NCBI GenBank assembly: GCA_938045585.1
Contig: CALIAU010000010.1
Location: 62,001 to 126,000, forward strand
Reading direction: 5' to 3'
Source: an uncultured Saprospiraceae bacterium
GTDB taxonomy: Bacteria; Bacteroidota; Bacteroidia; Chitinophagales; Saprospiraceae
DNA length: 64,000 nt
Shown here piece by piece: positions 985-7,161 of this stretch. How positions within the stretch are numbered: the stretch's first letter is position 1; each line of letters opens with the position of its first letter. Below the pieces are notes generated by a model. That model was given only the letters and a program-made list of their open reading frames with translations, searched no databases and was not told the DNA's origin. The translations under genes were made by a program, and so were the position numbers.

Positions 985-1116
985 AAAATCATCCCACAAT
1001 TCCCCAGCTCAGACATCTTTCTCCTTCTCTTCATCAAGTCTAAGCTCTGACAACTGTATTATCTTCAGTCCTAAATAATTATGTCGCTCCTTCAGAGCTA
1101 AGATTTTTTTGTACAT

Positions 1117-1149
1117 CTTATAACCAAGAGATGCTCTCTTGGCTATAAG
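1117..1149. other. 15-bp stem hairpin
   Basis: The arm 1117-1131 (CTTATAACCAAGAGA) is matched by 1135-1149 with one non-Watson-Crick pair, around a three-base loop. A second perfect hairpin follows at 1153-1169 (TTGCCCC, TTT, GGGGCAA). Neither is followed by a T-run on the plus strand, and the flanks are not typical of a terminator. They could be transcript ends of the convergent genes or part of a structured repeat. Confidence 0.5.
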
Positions 1150-1197
1150 AGATTGCCCCTTTGGGGCAAAGCTTGTTCCATTATTTAAATTACCGTC

Positions 1198-1245
1198 TGC
1201 CCCGTCCGCTCCGTCCGCTCCGTCCGCCTTGTCTGTTCGTCTCCA
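1198..1245. repeat. TCCG-rich degenerate tandem tract
   Basis: The plus strand carries closely spaced CCGTCCGCT units (GTCCGCTCC repeated) continuing as GTCTGTTCGTCTCC. Its reverse complement (CGGACGGAG..., GACGAACAGAC) has the same word usage as the 225-base CGGA tract at 44275-44500 downstream of sprA, so the two are probably members of one low-complexity repeat type in opposite orientation. Confidence 0.5.
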
Positions 1246-1388
1246 TATCCTCTCGCTGTTTTGAAGTTACCCTCAGTCCGGTTTGTACACTCTGTCCCGC
1301 TTCCGTCCCAAACACGCCGCTCTCTCTTCATCTTTTAATTTTAGATTAAAGATTCCCAATCCATGAAACCAGCCCGCAGGGCGGAAAA

Positions 1389-2474
1389 CTATCGCCCCTT
1401 AAATATCGAATTCTGCTGATTAATACTCTCATCATGAATCGCTGCAAACAACTTCCTAATAAATTCATCACTGAGACCATTTCTATTTCCAATCTTCAAA
1501 TACCTTTGAATCTTCTTTGTCCAAGTTTTGTTTTGGTAAATAGTCATGTTATTGTCTTTCTTGTATTTGCCAATATCATTTACAATCTTCATTCTATTCG
1601 AAAGAAGATCCACAATATCATCGTCGATATTTTTTATTTCTTCACGAAACTGTTGTAATGGCGTTTGGATAGGAACCTCGCCTTCATAATCTTCCCTAAG
1701 AACCATTTCTGTAACCATGGCACCAAATACTTCTGGGGTGATCTGCTGCTTTGCATCGCTCCATGCATTGTCAGGATCTATGTGACTTTCTATCATCAAA
1801 CCATCAAAATCTAAATCCATAGCTTTTTGTCCTACATCCTGAAGTATATCCCTACGCCCACAGATATGACTTGGATCTGCAATCATTGGAATCTCTGGAA
1901 ATTCCTGCATAAACTGAATAGGAATTTGCCACTGGGGTCTGTTGCGATAATACTTTTCTCCAGAATATGAAAAACCTCTATGGATCGCGCCTAACTCCTT
2001 GATGCCTACTGCATCCAGTCGTTCAAATGCTCCTTTCCATAATGCCAAATCAGGATTGATAGGGTTCTTTATAAGAACAGGAATATCCACACCACGTAAG
2101 GCATCTGCAATTTCTTGTACCGCAAATGGATTTACTGTAGTACGAGCACCTATCCATAAAATGTCGATTCCAAATTCTAAACAAAGGTCCACATGTCTTG
2201 CCTTAGCGACTTCAACAGTGGTAGGAAAACCAGTAAGCTCTTTTGCCTTTGCCATCCAGGGTAATCCCTTGGCACCTACTCCCTCAAATGAACCAGGACG
2301 CGTCCTTGGTTTCCAAATACCACCTCTAAGGATATCAGATTTTCCTGTTGCTTTTAGTCGTTTTGCTGTATCTATTAATTGTTCCTCTGTCTCTACACTA
2401 CAAGGACCTGCTATAACAATCGGTCTCTTTTCTTTCGTTAACCATGTAGCTTGGCGCTTTTTTGTATCTGTCAT
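1389..2474 (-). CDS. aroF: Bifunctional DAHP synthase / chorismate mutase
   Basis: The N-terminal ~265 residues are a type I DAHP synthase of the AroF/KDO8P-synthase-like branch (PIVIAGPCSVET near the start, KPRTRPGSFEGVG, IADPSHICGRRD). It condenses phosphoenolpyruvate and erythrose 4-phosphate, the first step of aromatic amino acid synthesis. The C-terminal ~90 residues (FREEIKNIDDDIVDLLSNRM...) are an AroQ-type chorismate mutase. This order, synthase first and mutase last, is usual in Bacteroidota. The gene begins directly after tyrA ends and is the last of a three-gene operon with the aminotransferase and tyrA. Expression is probably set by the attenuator at 4481-4609. No pheA is in the operon. 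Confidence 0.93.
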   Translation of the reverse strand: MTDTKKRQATWLTKEKRPIVIAGPCSVETEEQLIDTAKRLKATGKSDILRGGIWKPRTRPGSFEGVGAKGLPWMAKAKELTGFPTTVEVAKARHVDLCLEFGIDILWIGARTTVNPFAVQEIADALRGVDIPVLIKNPINPDLALWKGAFERLDAVGIKELGAIHRGFSYSGEKYYRNRPQWQIPIQFMQEFPEIPMIADPSHICGRRDILQDVGQKAMDLDFDGLMIESHIDPDNAWSDAKQQITPEVFGAMVTEMVLREDYEGEVPIQTPLQQFREEIKNIDDDIVDLLSNRMKIVNDIGKYKKDNNMTIYQNKTWTKKIQRYLKIGNRNGLSDEFIRKLFAAIHDESINQQNSIFKGR

Positions 2475-3338
2475 TTATATTTTATTGTTAGTGTTTATTC
2501 CATTTAAGACCGGTGTGATCTCATTTGCTTTTTGCATTAATTTAAACGTATCATCCGCATCATCTTGACGGAGGCTGTTCGCGAAGTTTTCCAGATGAGA
2601 AATATAACTGTCTAAGGCTTCTAGTACGTATTCTTTATTACCATAAAATATGGGATTCCATGTTTGAGGCGAACTCTTTGCCAAGCGTACCGTAGAAGCA
2701 AAACCTGTGCTTGCAAGATTAAAAATCTGTTTTTCATCCTTTTCCAGATCTAGCACTGTATGCCCTAACATAAACGAACTGATATGCGAGAGATGAGAAA
2801 CATAGGCAAGATGCTTGTCATGTTCTTCAGAGTTGAGAAAAATGCTTTGCATGCCAATACTCTTGAATATTCTTAAGCTCGTATCCACAAATTTTTCATT
2901 GGATAAAGCTTGGTCACATATAATATTCTTCTTGTCTCGAAACAAACCACGATGTGCAGCTGTAGGTCCAGAAAATTCAGTTCCTGCTAAGGGGTGTGCT
3001 GCAACAAAATGAGCGCGCTTGGGGTGGTCTTTTACCGCATTGCAAATACGCTTTTTTGTAGAGCCAACATCAATAATGCATTGATGCGTTTGTAACTGAT
3101 CTAAGAGTTTTGGCAGTTTTGATTCTATCAAATTTACAGGGATAGCTAAAATTATAATATCACAGTTTTCTAGCATTTCTTCCTCTGTCATGATATCCTC
3201 CACAAGTTCTAATTCTAAAGCTTGTCTGCGGTGTGATTCTATGAGATCCCAGCCGTATACCTGTGTTGCAAGCTGCGCATTCAGTTCCATTGCAATGGAT
3301 CCTCCTATTAATCCTAAACCTATGACTCCTATCTGCAT
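2475..3338 (-). CDS. tyrA: Prephenate dehydrogenase
   Basis: Oxidises prephenate to 4-hydroxyphenylpyruvate with NAD(P), committing chorismate-derived carbon to tyrosine. The protein opens with a Rossmann motif (IGVIGLGLIGGSIA); VAAHPLAGTEFSGP is the prephenate-binding HPLAGxE motif with the catalytic histidine. Its 287 aa are normal for the single-domain enzyme, with no ACT domain. It overlaps the aminotransferase end by 10 bases and abuts the DAHP synthase gene, so translational coupling in one operon is likely. Without its own ACT domain, supply is probably controlled mainly at the attenuator. Confidence 0.93.
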   Translation of the reverse strand: MQIGVIGLGLIGGSIAMELNAQLATQVYGWDLIESHRRQALELELVEDIMTEEEMLENCDIIILAIPVNLIESKLPKLLDQLQTHQCIIDVGSTKKRICNAVKDHPKRAHFVAAHPLAGTEFSGPTAAHRGLFRDKKNIICDQALSNEKFVDTSLRIFKSIGMQSIFLNSEEHDKHLAYVSHLSHISSFMLGHTVLDLEKDEKQIFNLASTGFASTVRLAKSSPQTWNPIFYGNKEYVLEALDSYISHLENFANSLRQDDADDTFKLMQKANEITPVLNGINTNNKI

Positions 3339-4480: not shown

Positions 4481-4510
4481 AAAAAAAAAGGAGCCCAAAA
4501 TTTGAGCTCC
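4481..4510 (-). terminator. Attenuator terminator ending at the start codon of the aromatic operon
   Basis: On the minus strand GGAGCTC pairs with GGGCTCC (one G-T wobble), extended by A-T pairs at the loop, followed by nine T and then at once the ATG of the aminotransferase (4480). This is an intrinsic terminator placed between leader and operon. GAGCTC in its 5' arm (4504-4509) is identical to GAGCTC at 4550-4555 right after the leader stop codon. Because GAGCTC is self-complementary, the two can pair and stop the terminator from forming. Confidence 0.85.
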
Positions 4511-4555
4511 TTATTGTTATATATTTTCAATTAAACTATTGCATACAACGAGCTC

Positions 4556-4609
4556 TTACTGCGAACAGAAGTAAAAACTGTGGAAATATGCATCGAAAAA
4601 CTGTCTCAT
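4556..4609 (-). CDS. Phe/Tyr-rich leader peptide of the aromatic operon (17 aa)
   Basis: Reading from ATG 4609: MRQFFDAYFHSFYFCSQ, then TAA. Five of 17 residues are Phe and two Tyr. It lies between a Bacteroidota-type promoter and an intrinsic terminator upstream of DAHP synthase, tyrA and an aminotransferase. This is the layout of ribosome-mediated attenuation as in pheA/trp leaders. Two pairings could alternate: TGCATA inside the leader (4587-4592) with TATGCA (4540-4545), and GAGCTC 4550-4555 with GAGCTC 4504-4509. Stalling at Phe codons would free the latter and prevent termination. The mechanism is inferred; peptide, terminator and pairing words are read directly. Confidence 0.82.
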   Translation of the reverse strand: MRQFFDAYFHSFYFCSQ

Positions 4610-4616
4610 TGAACCG

Positions 4617-4649
4617 CAAACATAATATTATTATGGAATTTATTCAAAA
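4617..4649 (-). promoter_or_regulatory. Promoter of the leader / aromatic operon
   Basis: On the minus strand TTTTG (4645-4649) and TATGTTTG (4617-4624) are separated by 20 bases. This fits the Bacteroidota primary sigma consensus (TTG at about -33, TAnnTTTG at about -7). Transcription would begin near 4611, only a few bases before the leader ATG at 4609, so the leader mRNA would be nearly leaderless. Confidence 0.7.
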
Positions 4650-5125: not shown

Positions 5126-5671
5126 GTGAACGAAGATATTTTAATAATCAAAGCTAAATCAGGAGAAAGACTTGCTCAGCAAGATCTTTATAATGCCTAT
5201 GCAAGGGATTGGTTTAGTATTTGTTTACGATATCAAAAGTACAAGTCAGACGCTGAAGATGCTTTACAAAACGCATTAGTCAAAATTTTTAGTCAATTAC
5301 GAAAGTTCGATATTAATTTAGGAAGCTTCGGAGCATGGTCCGCAAAGATTGTTGTAAATGAAAATTTACAATTGATCAAAAAACGCAGACTTAATTACGA
5401 ATTAGCAGATGTAGAAGAAAAACCTGCTAATAATCAAGAGCAAAGTGTATATGAAGGATTATCATCTGAAGTATTAACACTCATGATTCAAGAGCTTCCA
5501 ACTGGTTATCGTTCCGTGTTTAACCTGTATGTTGTAGACGGTTATTCTCACAAAGAGATTTCTGAAATACTTCATATTAATTTAGGAACATCTAAATCGC
5601 AATTGTCAAAAGCAAAATTGATGCTAAGAAAAAAAGTAGAGTCAATTATGTTAAATTCCAAAGTCTCATGA
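5126..5671 (+). CDS. ECF-family RNA polymerase sigma factor
   Basis: A 181-aa sigma-70 family factor with only regions 2 and 4. Region 2 is visible as DLYNAYARDWFSICLRY...SDAEDALQNALVKIFSQL (core binding and -10 melting). Region 4 is LPTGYRSVFNLYVVDGYSHKEISEILHINLGTSKSQLSKAK (helix-turn-helix for -35 recognition). It directs RNA polymerase to a regulon in response to an envelope signal. The start is GTG at 5126; no better ATG lies upstream in frame. It overlaps the next gene by four bases (ATGA), so the membrane protein downstream is very likely its anti-sigma partner. Confidence 0.9.
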   Translation: MNEDILIIKAKSGERLAQQDLYNAYARDWFSICLRYQKYKSDAEDALQNALVKIFSQLRKFDINLGSFGAWSAKIVVNENLQLIKKRRLNYELADVEEKPANNQEQSVYEGLSSEVLTLMIQELPTGYRSVFNLYVVDGYSHKEISEILHINLGTSKSQLSKAKLMLRKKVESIMLNSKVS

Positions 5672-7161
5672 GTAAGATAAAGAAAGATAAACTGGAAGAA
5701 TTTTTTGAGTCCCGCATTAAACAACAGACTGGTGCGGAAGACTGGAACCTACCATCAAATGATATTTTCTTAGCAGCTATAGAAAAGGTGGTAATACAAA
5801 AAGAAGAAAATAAGAGAAAATGGCTTATACTTTCCAGTATAGCATTCTTCACTCTTGTACTTAGTATTTTGTTATATATTTCAAATAGATCTCAACAGGT
5901 AAATCCTGCAATCGCAACTACAGAAACTCCTAACATAATCGAGAAATCAGAATCTGGCTCTCAGCAAACTATTCAAAAAATAAATACGAGTACAGCGAAT
6001 CAAAATATTGAAGAAAAAGTTAAGATTGCTCCTGTAAAATTCCAAGCAGCAACTACAATTGCAAACACAAAATCTACTCTTAGAAAACCAGCAGTTGGAA
6101 AAAGTAAAATACTACAATCTCAAAACCCTGTATTTCCTGATGCAACACAATTCGCCCCTGACAATATCTCAAATGAAATTAAGAGTAATATAAATATACA
6201 GCAAGCAAATGTACTTGCACCTTACTCTGATGATCGAAACCCTGCATTAACCAAAAGAACCAAAATTGAAACAATTAAGCTTTTAGCTAACAATAAACTA
6301 AGCGGTATTGAAACGAACGCATTAAATCTACCCATTGCAAATTTTGCGTATCTCGAAAACAGTAGCGCCAGTTGTTGCAATAGTAAACCAATTAGATTAT
6401 TTGCCCAGAGTTCTTTATTACAGTCATCTGTATTCATGAAAGATGTACATGCTAGTGATTTTACCTTAGAGGGATATGAGCGCTTTAGTATGGGATACTC
6501 TTTTGGATTTGGACTAGAAAAAGATTTATCAAATAAATTTAGTTTGAGAGCAAACACAAACTTGATACACTTTTCTAATTCAAGTGTGTATGAATCTAAG
6601 TTTAATTTTGATGAGACGCACGCCTTTATTGCAGATAATGGTGACCAGATGTACCATAATAAAATGGTTTTAAATACTCCAAGAGCACGGATTTCCATGA
6701 GTGATGATGTATTTATGGCTGATAAAATGAATCAGGATGATTTAATTACAAATACAACTGAAATAGTAGAATCCTATTGGGTTGCCCAATTAGGTATCGG
6801 TCTACACTATGCACTCTACAGCACAAGTAGACTTAGTTTAGATTTAGGCCTCACGCCTGGCATTAATTATATTTTCAACGACCATACAGAGCTGAGTACT
6901 GTATTAGAAGCACATAACATGCAAATGGCAAGTTATAACAGCACAGAAAATAGCATGGATGTAGGTGCATTTAATCAATTATATTTTGATGTAAATTCAT
7001 CTCTAAGTCTTAACTATCATTTTACAAATAATTGGACTCTACGCCTCTCTGGGCTCTATGGACATTCCTTAAATTCGATCAAGAAATTTGATGACCTAGA
7101 CTCAAGCAAAAGCTATTTTAAAACCCGTTCTGTTGCTGTAGGTCTGGCTTATCAGTTTTAG
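5668..7161 (+). CDS. Probable anti-sigma factor with inner-membrane helix and C-terminal beta-barrel domain
   Basis: 497 aa in three parts. Residues 1-50 form a charged cytoplasmic segment (KKDKLEEFFESRIKQQTGAEDW). Residues ~52-72 form one hydrophobic helix (WLILSSIAFFTLVLSILLYI). A ~150-residue Ser/Thr/Asn/Lys-rich linker follows. The last ~250 residues show alternating beta-strands and end in ...VAVGLAYQF, typical of outer-membrane beta-barrels in the porin family. Its four-base overlap with the sigma gene and its cytoplasmic head suggest it binds and holds that sigma factor (inference). One chain with an inner-membrane anchor and a barrel-like C-terminus would span the envelope. A soluble beta-domain is the alternative. 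Confidence 0.7.
   Translation: MSKIKKDKLEEFFESRIKQQTGAEDWNLPSNDIFLAAIEKVVIQKEENKRKWLILSSIAFFTLVLSILLYISNRSQQVNPAIATTETPNIIEKSESGSQQTIQKINTSTANQNIEEKVKIAPVKFQAATTIANTKSTLRKPAVGKSKILQSQNPVFPDATQFAPDNISNEIKSNINIQQANVLAPYSDDRNPALTKRTKIETIKLLANNKLSGIETNALNLPIANFAYLENSSASCCNSKPIRLFAQSSLLQSSVFMKDVHASDFTLEGYERFSMGYSFGFGLEKDLSNKFSLRANTNLIHFSNSSVYESKFNFDETHAFIADNGDQMYHNKMVLNTPRARISMSDDVFMADKMNQDDLITNTTEIVESYWVAQLGIGLHYALYSTSRLSLDLGLTPGINYIFNDHTELSTVLEAHNMQMASYNSTENSMDVGAFNQLYFDVNSSLSLNYHFTNNWTLRLSGLYGHSLNSIKKFDDLDSSKSYFKTRSVAVGLAYQF

Follow-up and report, generated by a model that had tools for sequence, protein, structure and literature searches.

A probable Phe/Tyr leader-peptide attenuator ahead of an aromatic amino acid operon in Saprospiraceae, with counterparts across Bacteroidota

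The window, a 64 kb stretch of Saprospiraceae DNA, carries ahead of an aromatic amino acid operon what is very probably a classical ribosome-mediated transcription attenuator sensing the charging of Phe-tRNA and Tyr-tRNA. Its parts and their spacing are evident in the window, the closest relative preserves the leader frame, and across related loci region 2 is complementary in a species-specific manner to region 1 on one side and to region 3 on the other. The conserved leader, the recurrence of the module, and this complementarity argue for the Phe/Tyr attenuator proposed earlier from the letters of the window (the sequence-only reading).

Anatomy of the leader and its operon

The sequence-only reading described a promoter, a 17-residue leader peptide with seven aromatic residues, a GAGCTC motif following its stop codon, and a second GAGCTC in the 5' arm of a terminator. 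All of these are present in the minus-strand sequence (Table 1), as are the nine T and, at once after them, the ATG of the operon that it named. The gene identities hold by profile matches, and the aminotransferase, tyrA, and DAHP synthase/chorismate mutase genes each overlap or abut the next. The gene upstream of the leader is divergent in orientation.

Table 1. Features of the leader region and operon, in window coordinates
Feature	Position	Strand	Evidence
-33 element TTTG	4645..4648	-	Sequence; consensus from PMC7366714; 20 nt spacer to -7 box
-7 element TATGTTTG (= TAnnTTTG)	4617..4624	-	Sequence; same position in G001 alignment
Predicted transcription start	4612	-	Position of the box at -12 to -5 (PMC9723704)
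Leader peptide ORF, MRQFFDAYFHSFYFCSQ-stop (F4 F5 Y8 F9 F12 Y13 F14)	4556..4609	-	Sequence; frame kept in G001
TGCATA, outer extension of the protector stem	4587..4592	-	Paired with 4545-4540 in predicted fold
Region 1, AGTTTTTACT, protector 5' arm; overlaps codons 11-14 (Ser-Phe-Tyr-Phe)	4570..4579	-	Fold; 1:2 complementarity
Region 2, AGTAAGAGCT, protector 3' arm	4551..4560	-	Fold
Region 2 core GAGCTC, antiterminator 5' arm, immediately 3' of leader stop	4550..4555	-	Stalled-ribosome fold; 2:3 complementarity
TATGCA, pairs with TGCATA (4592-4587)	4540..4545	-	Fold
Region 3 core GAGCTC, antiterminator 3' arm and portion of terminator 5' arm	4504..4509	-	Fold
Intrinsic terminator stem-loop AAGGAGCTCAA-ATT-TTGGGCTCCTT, regions 3:4	4488..4512	-	Sequence; fold
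T run, nine T, abutting the operon's first ATG	4481..4489	-	Sequence
Aminotransferase ATG	4480-4478	-	Sequence
Class I/II aminotransferase, first gene of the operon, 383 aa	3329..4480	-	Domain matches
tyrA, prephenate dehydrogenase; overlaps aminotransferase gene	2475..3338	-	NF006307 above NCBIfam cut-off; PF02153, PF20463
Bifunctional DAHP synthase/chorismate mutase (chorismate mutase II)	1389..2474	-	PF00793 and PF01817

The closest relative of the window is a genome of the same genus (G001), the aminotransferases being 73% identical. The -7 element keeps its position there in the alignment, reading TATGTTTA. In Flavobacterium psychrophilum the sigma-A box has been mapped at -12 to -5 (PMC9723704), which places +1 near 4612 and gives the 5' UTR a predicted length of about 3 nt: the box lies 7 nt from the leader ATG, with the same spacing in G001. 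The leader mRNA of the window is thus predicted, from the position of the box, to be nearly leaderless. Initiation close to the leader ATG, pointed out in the sequence-only reading, stands as a prediction, and it recurs in other lineages.

The leader of G001, MRQFFDAYYFSFYYCSQ, retains the frame, length, and aromatic residues of its counterpart, with Phe and Tyr codons exchanged for one another and synonymous changes in Asp and Ser codons. Conservation of the leader frame, named at the outset as a test on which the proposal could fail, is therefore found in G001, and comparable modules stand ahead of the aromatic operon in 80 of the 104 Bacteroidota loci compared. A pairwise count of structural changes would have had just two sequences to draw on, too small a number, and the genus offers no third genome; that count was set aside in favor of a permutation test over 79 modules.

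The leader stretch of the window folds more stably than its dinucleotide shuffles (z -3.2). Folding the RNA with the ribosome at three positions yields a protector stem of -16.0 kcal/mol, an antiterminator of -13.5 kcal/mol with the ribosome stalled, and a terminator of -15.4 kcal/mol with region 2 masked by the ribosome; the last two are mutually exclusive, and the same three states form with the RNA of G001. The terminator, which lies between the leader ORF and the first structural gene, has 11 pairs and a 3-nt loop. The antiterminator helix extends past GAGCTC into GTTGTATG (4549-4542, minus strand). The pairing of TGCATA with TATGCA, suggested previously, appears in the predicted fold, where it lengthens the protector stem, and species-specific complementarity supports both a protector stem of this kind and the GAGCTC antiterminator. 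Region 2 begins 12 nt past the last aromatic codon, right behind the stop, and the control codons are placed such that a stalled ribosome would free region 2 and an advancing one would mask it. Because the complete terminator is stronger than the antiterminator, antitermination must be kinetic.

In the proposed mechanism, transcription would begin about 3 nt ahead of the leader AUG. Were Phe or Tyr scarce, a ribosome would stall at codons 12-14 (Phe-Tyr-Phe) and melt protector hairpin 1:2, leaving region 2 (GAGCUC...) free to pair with region 3, the GAGCUC of the terminator 5' arm; the terminator would then be blocked and RNA polymerase would enter the aminotransferase-tyrA-DAHP synthase/chorismate mutase operon. 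With Phe and Tyr plentiful, a ribosome at the stop codon would cover the adjoining GAGCUC, allowing terminator 3:4 to form. With no ribosome, region 2 would be held by hairpin 1:2 and the terminator would form too. The start site, stalling, termination efficiency, and amino acid response in this scheme are predictions from sequence.

Plus-strand genes elsewhere in the window include one for an ECF-type sigma factor (5126-5671) and, after it, one (5668-7161) whose product is predicted to contain a single membrane-like segment and has a long C-terminal part. A similar-looking pair lies close to pheA in G001 (L114:2309-2893 and 1066-2328, minus strand).

Distribution, complementarity and alternative explanations

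Modules were sought with a detector that requires an ATG-initiated mini-ORF, 8-45 codons long, in which some stretch of eight codons encodes five or more aromatic residues, and after it a terminator-like hairpin with a T run within 75 nt of the mini-ORF stop. Over both strands of the window the detector returns one match, the leader at 4609-4556. Among 104 Bacteroidota loci, drawn from relatives of the window genome and from named genomes, a module precedes the opening gene of the aromatic operon in at least 80; this is a lower bound, since three more (L020, L080, and L109) have Phe/Tyr leaders but no terminator that passes the filter. The loci cover Saprospiraceae, Lewinella, Phaeodactylibacter, Portibacter, Marinilabiliaceae-type genera, Cytophagales (Pseudarcicella), Chitinophagaceae, and Flavobacteriaceae (Aquimarina, Polaribacter, Zobellia, Flavobacterium, and others). 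Within this set, the full anatomy occurs in Saprospiraceae, Flavobacteriaceae, Cytophagales, Chitinophagaceae, and Bacteroidales/Marinilabiliaceae-type genomes. As a few genomes are present in both sets, later tests were run on non-redundant modules; over 79 of these, Phe makes up 24% and Tyr 16.5% of the leader residues.

The device is not universal in Bacteroidota: 24 of the 104 loci have no detectable module, all examined Sphingobacterium among them. In Sphingobacterium and a close relative (L042, L047, L058, L063, L064, L070, L071, L072, L081, and L082) the aminotransferase has no adjacent pheA and no leader attenuator was detected, and control has apparently been lost or replaced at loci of this type.

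Most of the operons begin with pheA, and the module then lies ahead of that gene; in the window, G001, L069, L086, L096, and L102 the module stands directly ahead of the aminotransferase. G001 has a stand-alone pheA (L114:6164-6997) beside rarA, a place that a different gene occupies in the window genome (L117). A profile search with a positive control found no prephenate dehydratase in the window genome, nor did a search with the G001 PheA, which had no positive control of its own; aroC and trpB are present. pheA is thus apparently missing from the window genome, although at 98% completeness a gap may account for its absence. If this loss is real, Phe codons would still control entry into an operon in which TyrA, the committed branch enzyme, now serves tyrosine synthesis alone. 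No Phe/Tyr module was found at pheS of either genome or at the stand-alone pheA of G001. Neither genome has a hisG match (control genomes matched 13/14), and histidine auxotrophy of the genus is possible.

Complementarity was examined over the 79 non-redundant modules by pairing the segment after the aromatic codons with the terminator 5' arm of its own or of other modules. For the antiterminator (2:3), the mean duplex energy is -15.75 kcal/mol with the own partner, and permuting the partners weakens it to -10.18 kcal/mol (z -18.0; z -4.0 in a control with reversed sequences). For the protector (1:2), in which leader codons pair with the following segment, the values are -16.0 and -11.4 kcal/mol (z -14.3; control, z -2.3). 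Both helices display species-specific complementarity.

Region 2 starts a median of 11 nt after the aromatic codons (IQR 9-13, sd 3.7; 98 modules), while its start relative to the stop codon ranges from well within the ORF to just past the stop (sd 11). Spacing is therefore kept relative to the control codons rather than to the stop, which fits a segment that has to stay free of a stalled ribosome and be covered by a moving one; as the mispaired control has an identical median region 2 position, constant spacing is no independent proof of pairing. In 97% of non-redundant modules region 2 lies within the ORF or no more than 3 nt past the stop, so that an advancing ribosome must cover it.

The alternative that survives best, albeit improbable, is mainly translational control with little termination, the hairpin that ends at the first ATG hiding the start codon until leader translation exposes it. 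The hairpin does lie within about 10 nt of the ATG in the window and G001, near enough to hinder initiation, and Bacteroidota are described as having no Shine-Dalgarno-led initiation (PMC9723704). Against this, a T run follows the stem in the window and, by definition of the detector, in all 80 loci. The distance from hairpin to gene is 15-50 nt in most loci, and where two modules stand in tandem the first hairpin is mostly 116-400 nt away, unable to mask a start codon.

Transcription attenuation is likewise preferred over a chance arrangement, in which the terminator would serve another transcript and an aromatic-rich ORF would arise by accident in an A+T-rich leader. Short ORFs and terminators are common, and Phe and Tyr codons are A+T-rich, but no detector match occurs in 1040 dinucleotide shuffles of the upstream regions (0/1040), on the reverse strands of those regions, or in operon-internal stretches of similar size. 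The match in the window is the single one in 64 kb, and frame and aromatic residues are conserved phylum-wide. With the upstream gene divergent, no upstream transcript is in need of this terminator. Chance occurrence is accordingly rejected as highly unlikely.

A ligand- or protein-binding RNA (riboswitch or T-box) that senses an aromatic compound beside an incidental ORF can be dismissed with near certainty, and other known RNA families were rejected as well: alternative hairpins in a leader ahead of biosynthetic genes would suit such an RNA, but the window has no Rfam match at gathering score (Plastid-psbA-2 heads the sub-threshold list and Phe_leader follows), Phe/Tyr coding and alternative pairing are conserved and no aptamer sequence is, and the spacing is constant relative to the aromatic codons.

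Predicted near-leaderless leaders and tandem modules

Of the 64 non-redundant first leaders, 49 have an exact TAnnTTTG box no more than 60 nt away, over a background of 7.6%. Box-to-leader distances form two sets, 4-10 nt in 13 loci and 15-44 nt in 36, and a UTR of 0-6 nt is predicted for 13 of the 49 exact-box loci, the window included. Genome-wide, 5' UTRs shorter than 10 nt account for only 3.7% of those mapped in B. thetaiotaomicron (PMC7366714), and leaderless mRNAs for 5.5% in F. psychrophilum (PMC9723704).

At least 18 loci, mostly of Saprospiraceae, contain two complete Phe/Tyr leader-terminator modules in series upstream of pheA (L007, L008, L009, L010, L011, L014, L016, L022, L034, L035, L037, L039, L040, L041, L054, L055, L061, and L062); L040 is from Phaeodactylibacter xiamenensis. 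Phe and Tyr are abundant in first and second leaders alike. Only one of the 18 second leaders has a separate exact promoter box in front of it, and the tandem modules therefore appear to share one transcript. The modules of L041 are separated by 207 nt holding a repeated ACATAGTT/CTATGTGA-like inverted sequence.

These observations suggest, at about even chances, that Bacteroidota attenuate aromatic synthesis partly via (near-)leaderless leader mRNAs, and that many Saprospiraceae place two full Phe/Tyr attenuators serially behind one promoter, giving multiplicative or two-threshold control. The literature that could be searched seems to hold no description of the tandem form or of the leaderless class, nor of serial control by two attenuators for one amino acid pair.

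Classical attenuation requires a ribosome that starts at once and closely trails RNA polymerase. If the (near-)leaderless and tandem readings are true, they would reveal transcription tightly coupled to translation in a phylum whose translation initiation is unusual. A full attenuator anatomy in a phylum without Shine-Dalgarno-led initiation makes coupling and leaderless initiation testable on a short, well-defined RNA, and the tandem form is a natural test of what a second serial attenuator contributes. The element also offers Bacteroidota an amino-acid-responsive control part.

Comparison with known systems

Leader-peptide attenuation is a textbook mechanism. That of the window element is already known, the tandem and leaderless variants being its less familiar parts. 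Vitreschak, in 2004, reportedly counted Bacteroidetes/Chlorobi among the groups with candidate attenuators, and no first discovery is therefore claimed for attenuation in Bacteroidota. The pheL-pheA and pheST attenuators of Escherichia coli combine a Phe-rich leader peptide with protector, antiterminator, and terminator helices ahead of aromatic amino acid genes. The corresponding Rfam model, Phe_leader (RF01859), aligns end to end with window positions 4482-4610, but the score of 21 bits (E 0.27) is far under the cut-off of 55. The window leader further differs from the E. coli element in mixing Phe and Tyr codons and in the gene order that follows it, and its predicted 5' UTR of about 3 nt would leave no room for a Shine-Dalgarno site.

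The two ORFs of Salmonella mgtCBR sense different signals (ATP and proline), whereas both modules of the tandem Saprospiraceae loci are Phe/Tyr-rich. What mgtCBR nonetheless has in common with the tandem loci of relatives of the window genome is a pair of short ORFs with serial attenuators ahead of one operon (PMC3641672); in the window genome the module is single. Bacteroid-trp RNA (RF01692) occurs upstream of trp genes and is a suspected attenuator. It was predicted as a cis-regulatory RNA of Bacteroidetes and listed as not a switch (Weinberg 2010, PMC2864571); its genes differ from those considered here, and the window contains no match to it. In 2010, Naville and Gautheret presented a case of such attenuation from Firmicutes and knew of no earlier one from any group other than Proteobacteria and Actinobacteria (PMC2965389). 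The trpL of Sinorhizobium meliloti is a leaderless leader-peptide mRNA that starts at its ATG (PMC7298713), resembling in this the predicted (near-)leaderless window leader; it is a Trp leader of Alphaproteobacteria, and no sequence relation is claimed.

The closest parallel in phylum and pathway comes from a 2021 transcriptome study of F. psychrophilum, which reported strong clues for leader-peptide attenuation ahead of amino-acid operons and a pheA 5' element, conserved there and in other Flavobacteriaceae, that had no Rfam hit (PMC9723704). The available part of that study does not give the anatomy, covariation, or a tandem form of the element. The window module differs in preceding the aminotransferase, a position explained by the absence of pheA from the operon. 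In the Flavobacteriaceae loci analyzed here the module stands before pheA, and it is very likely that their pheA element and the window module belong to the same family.
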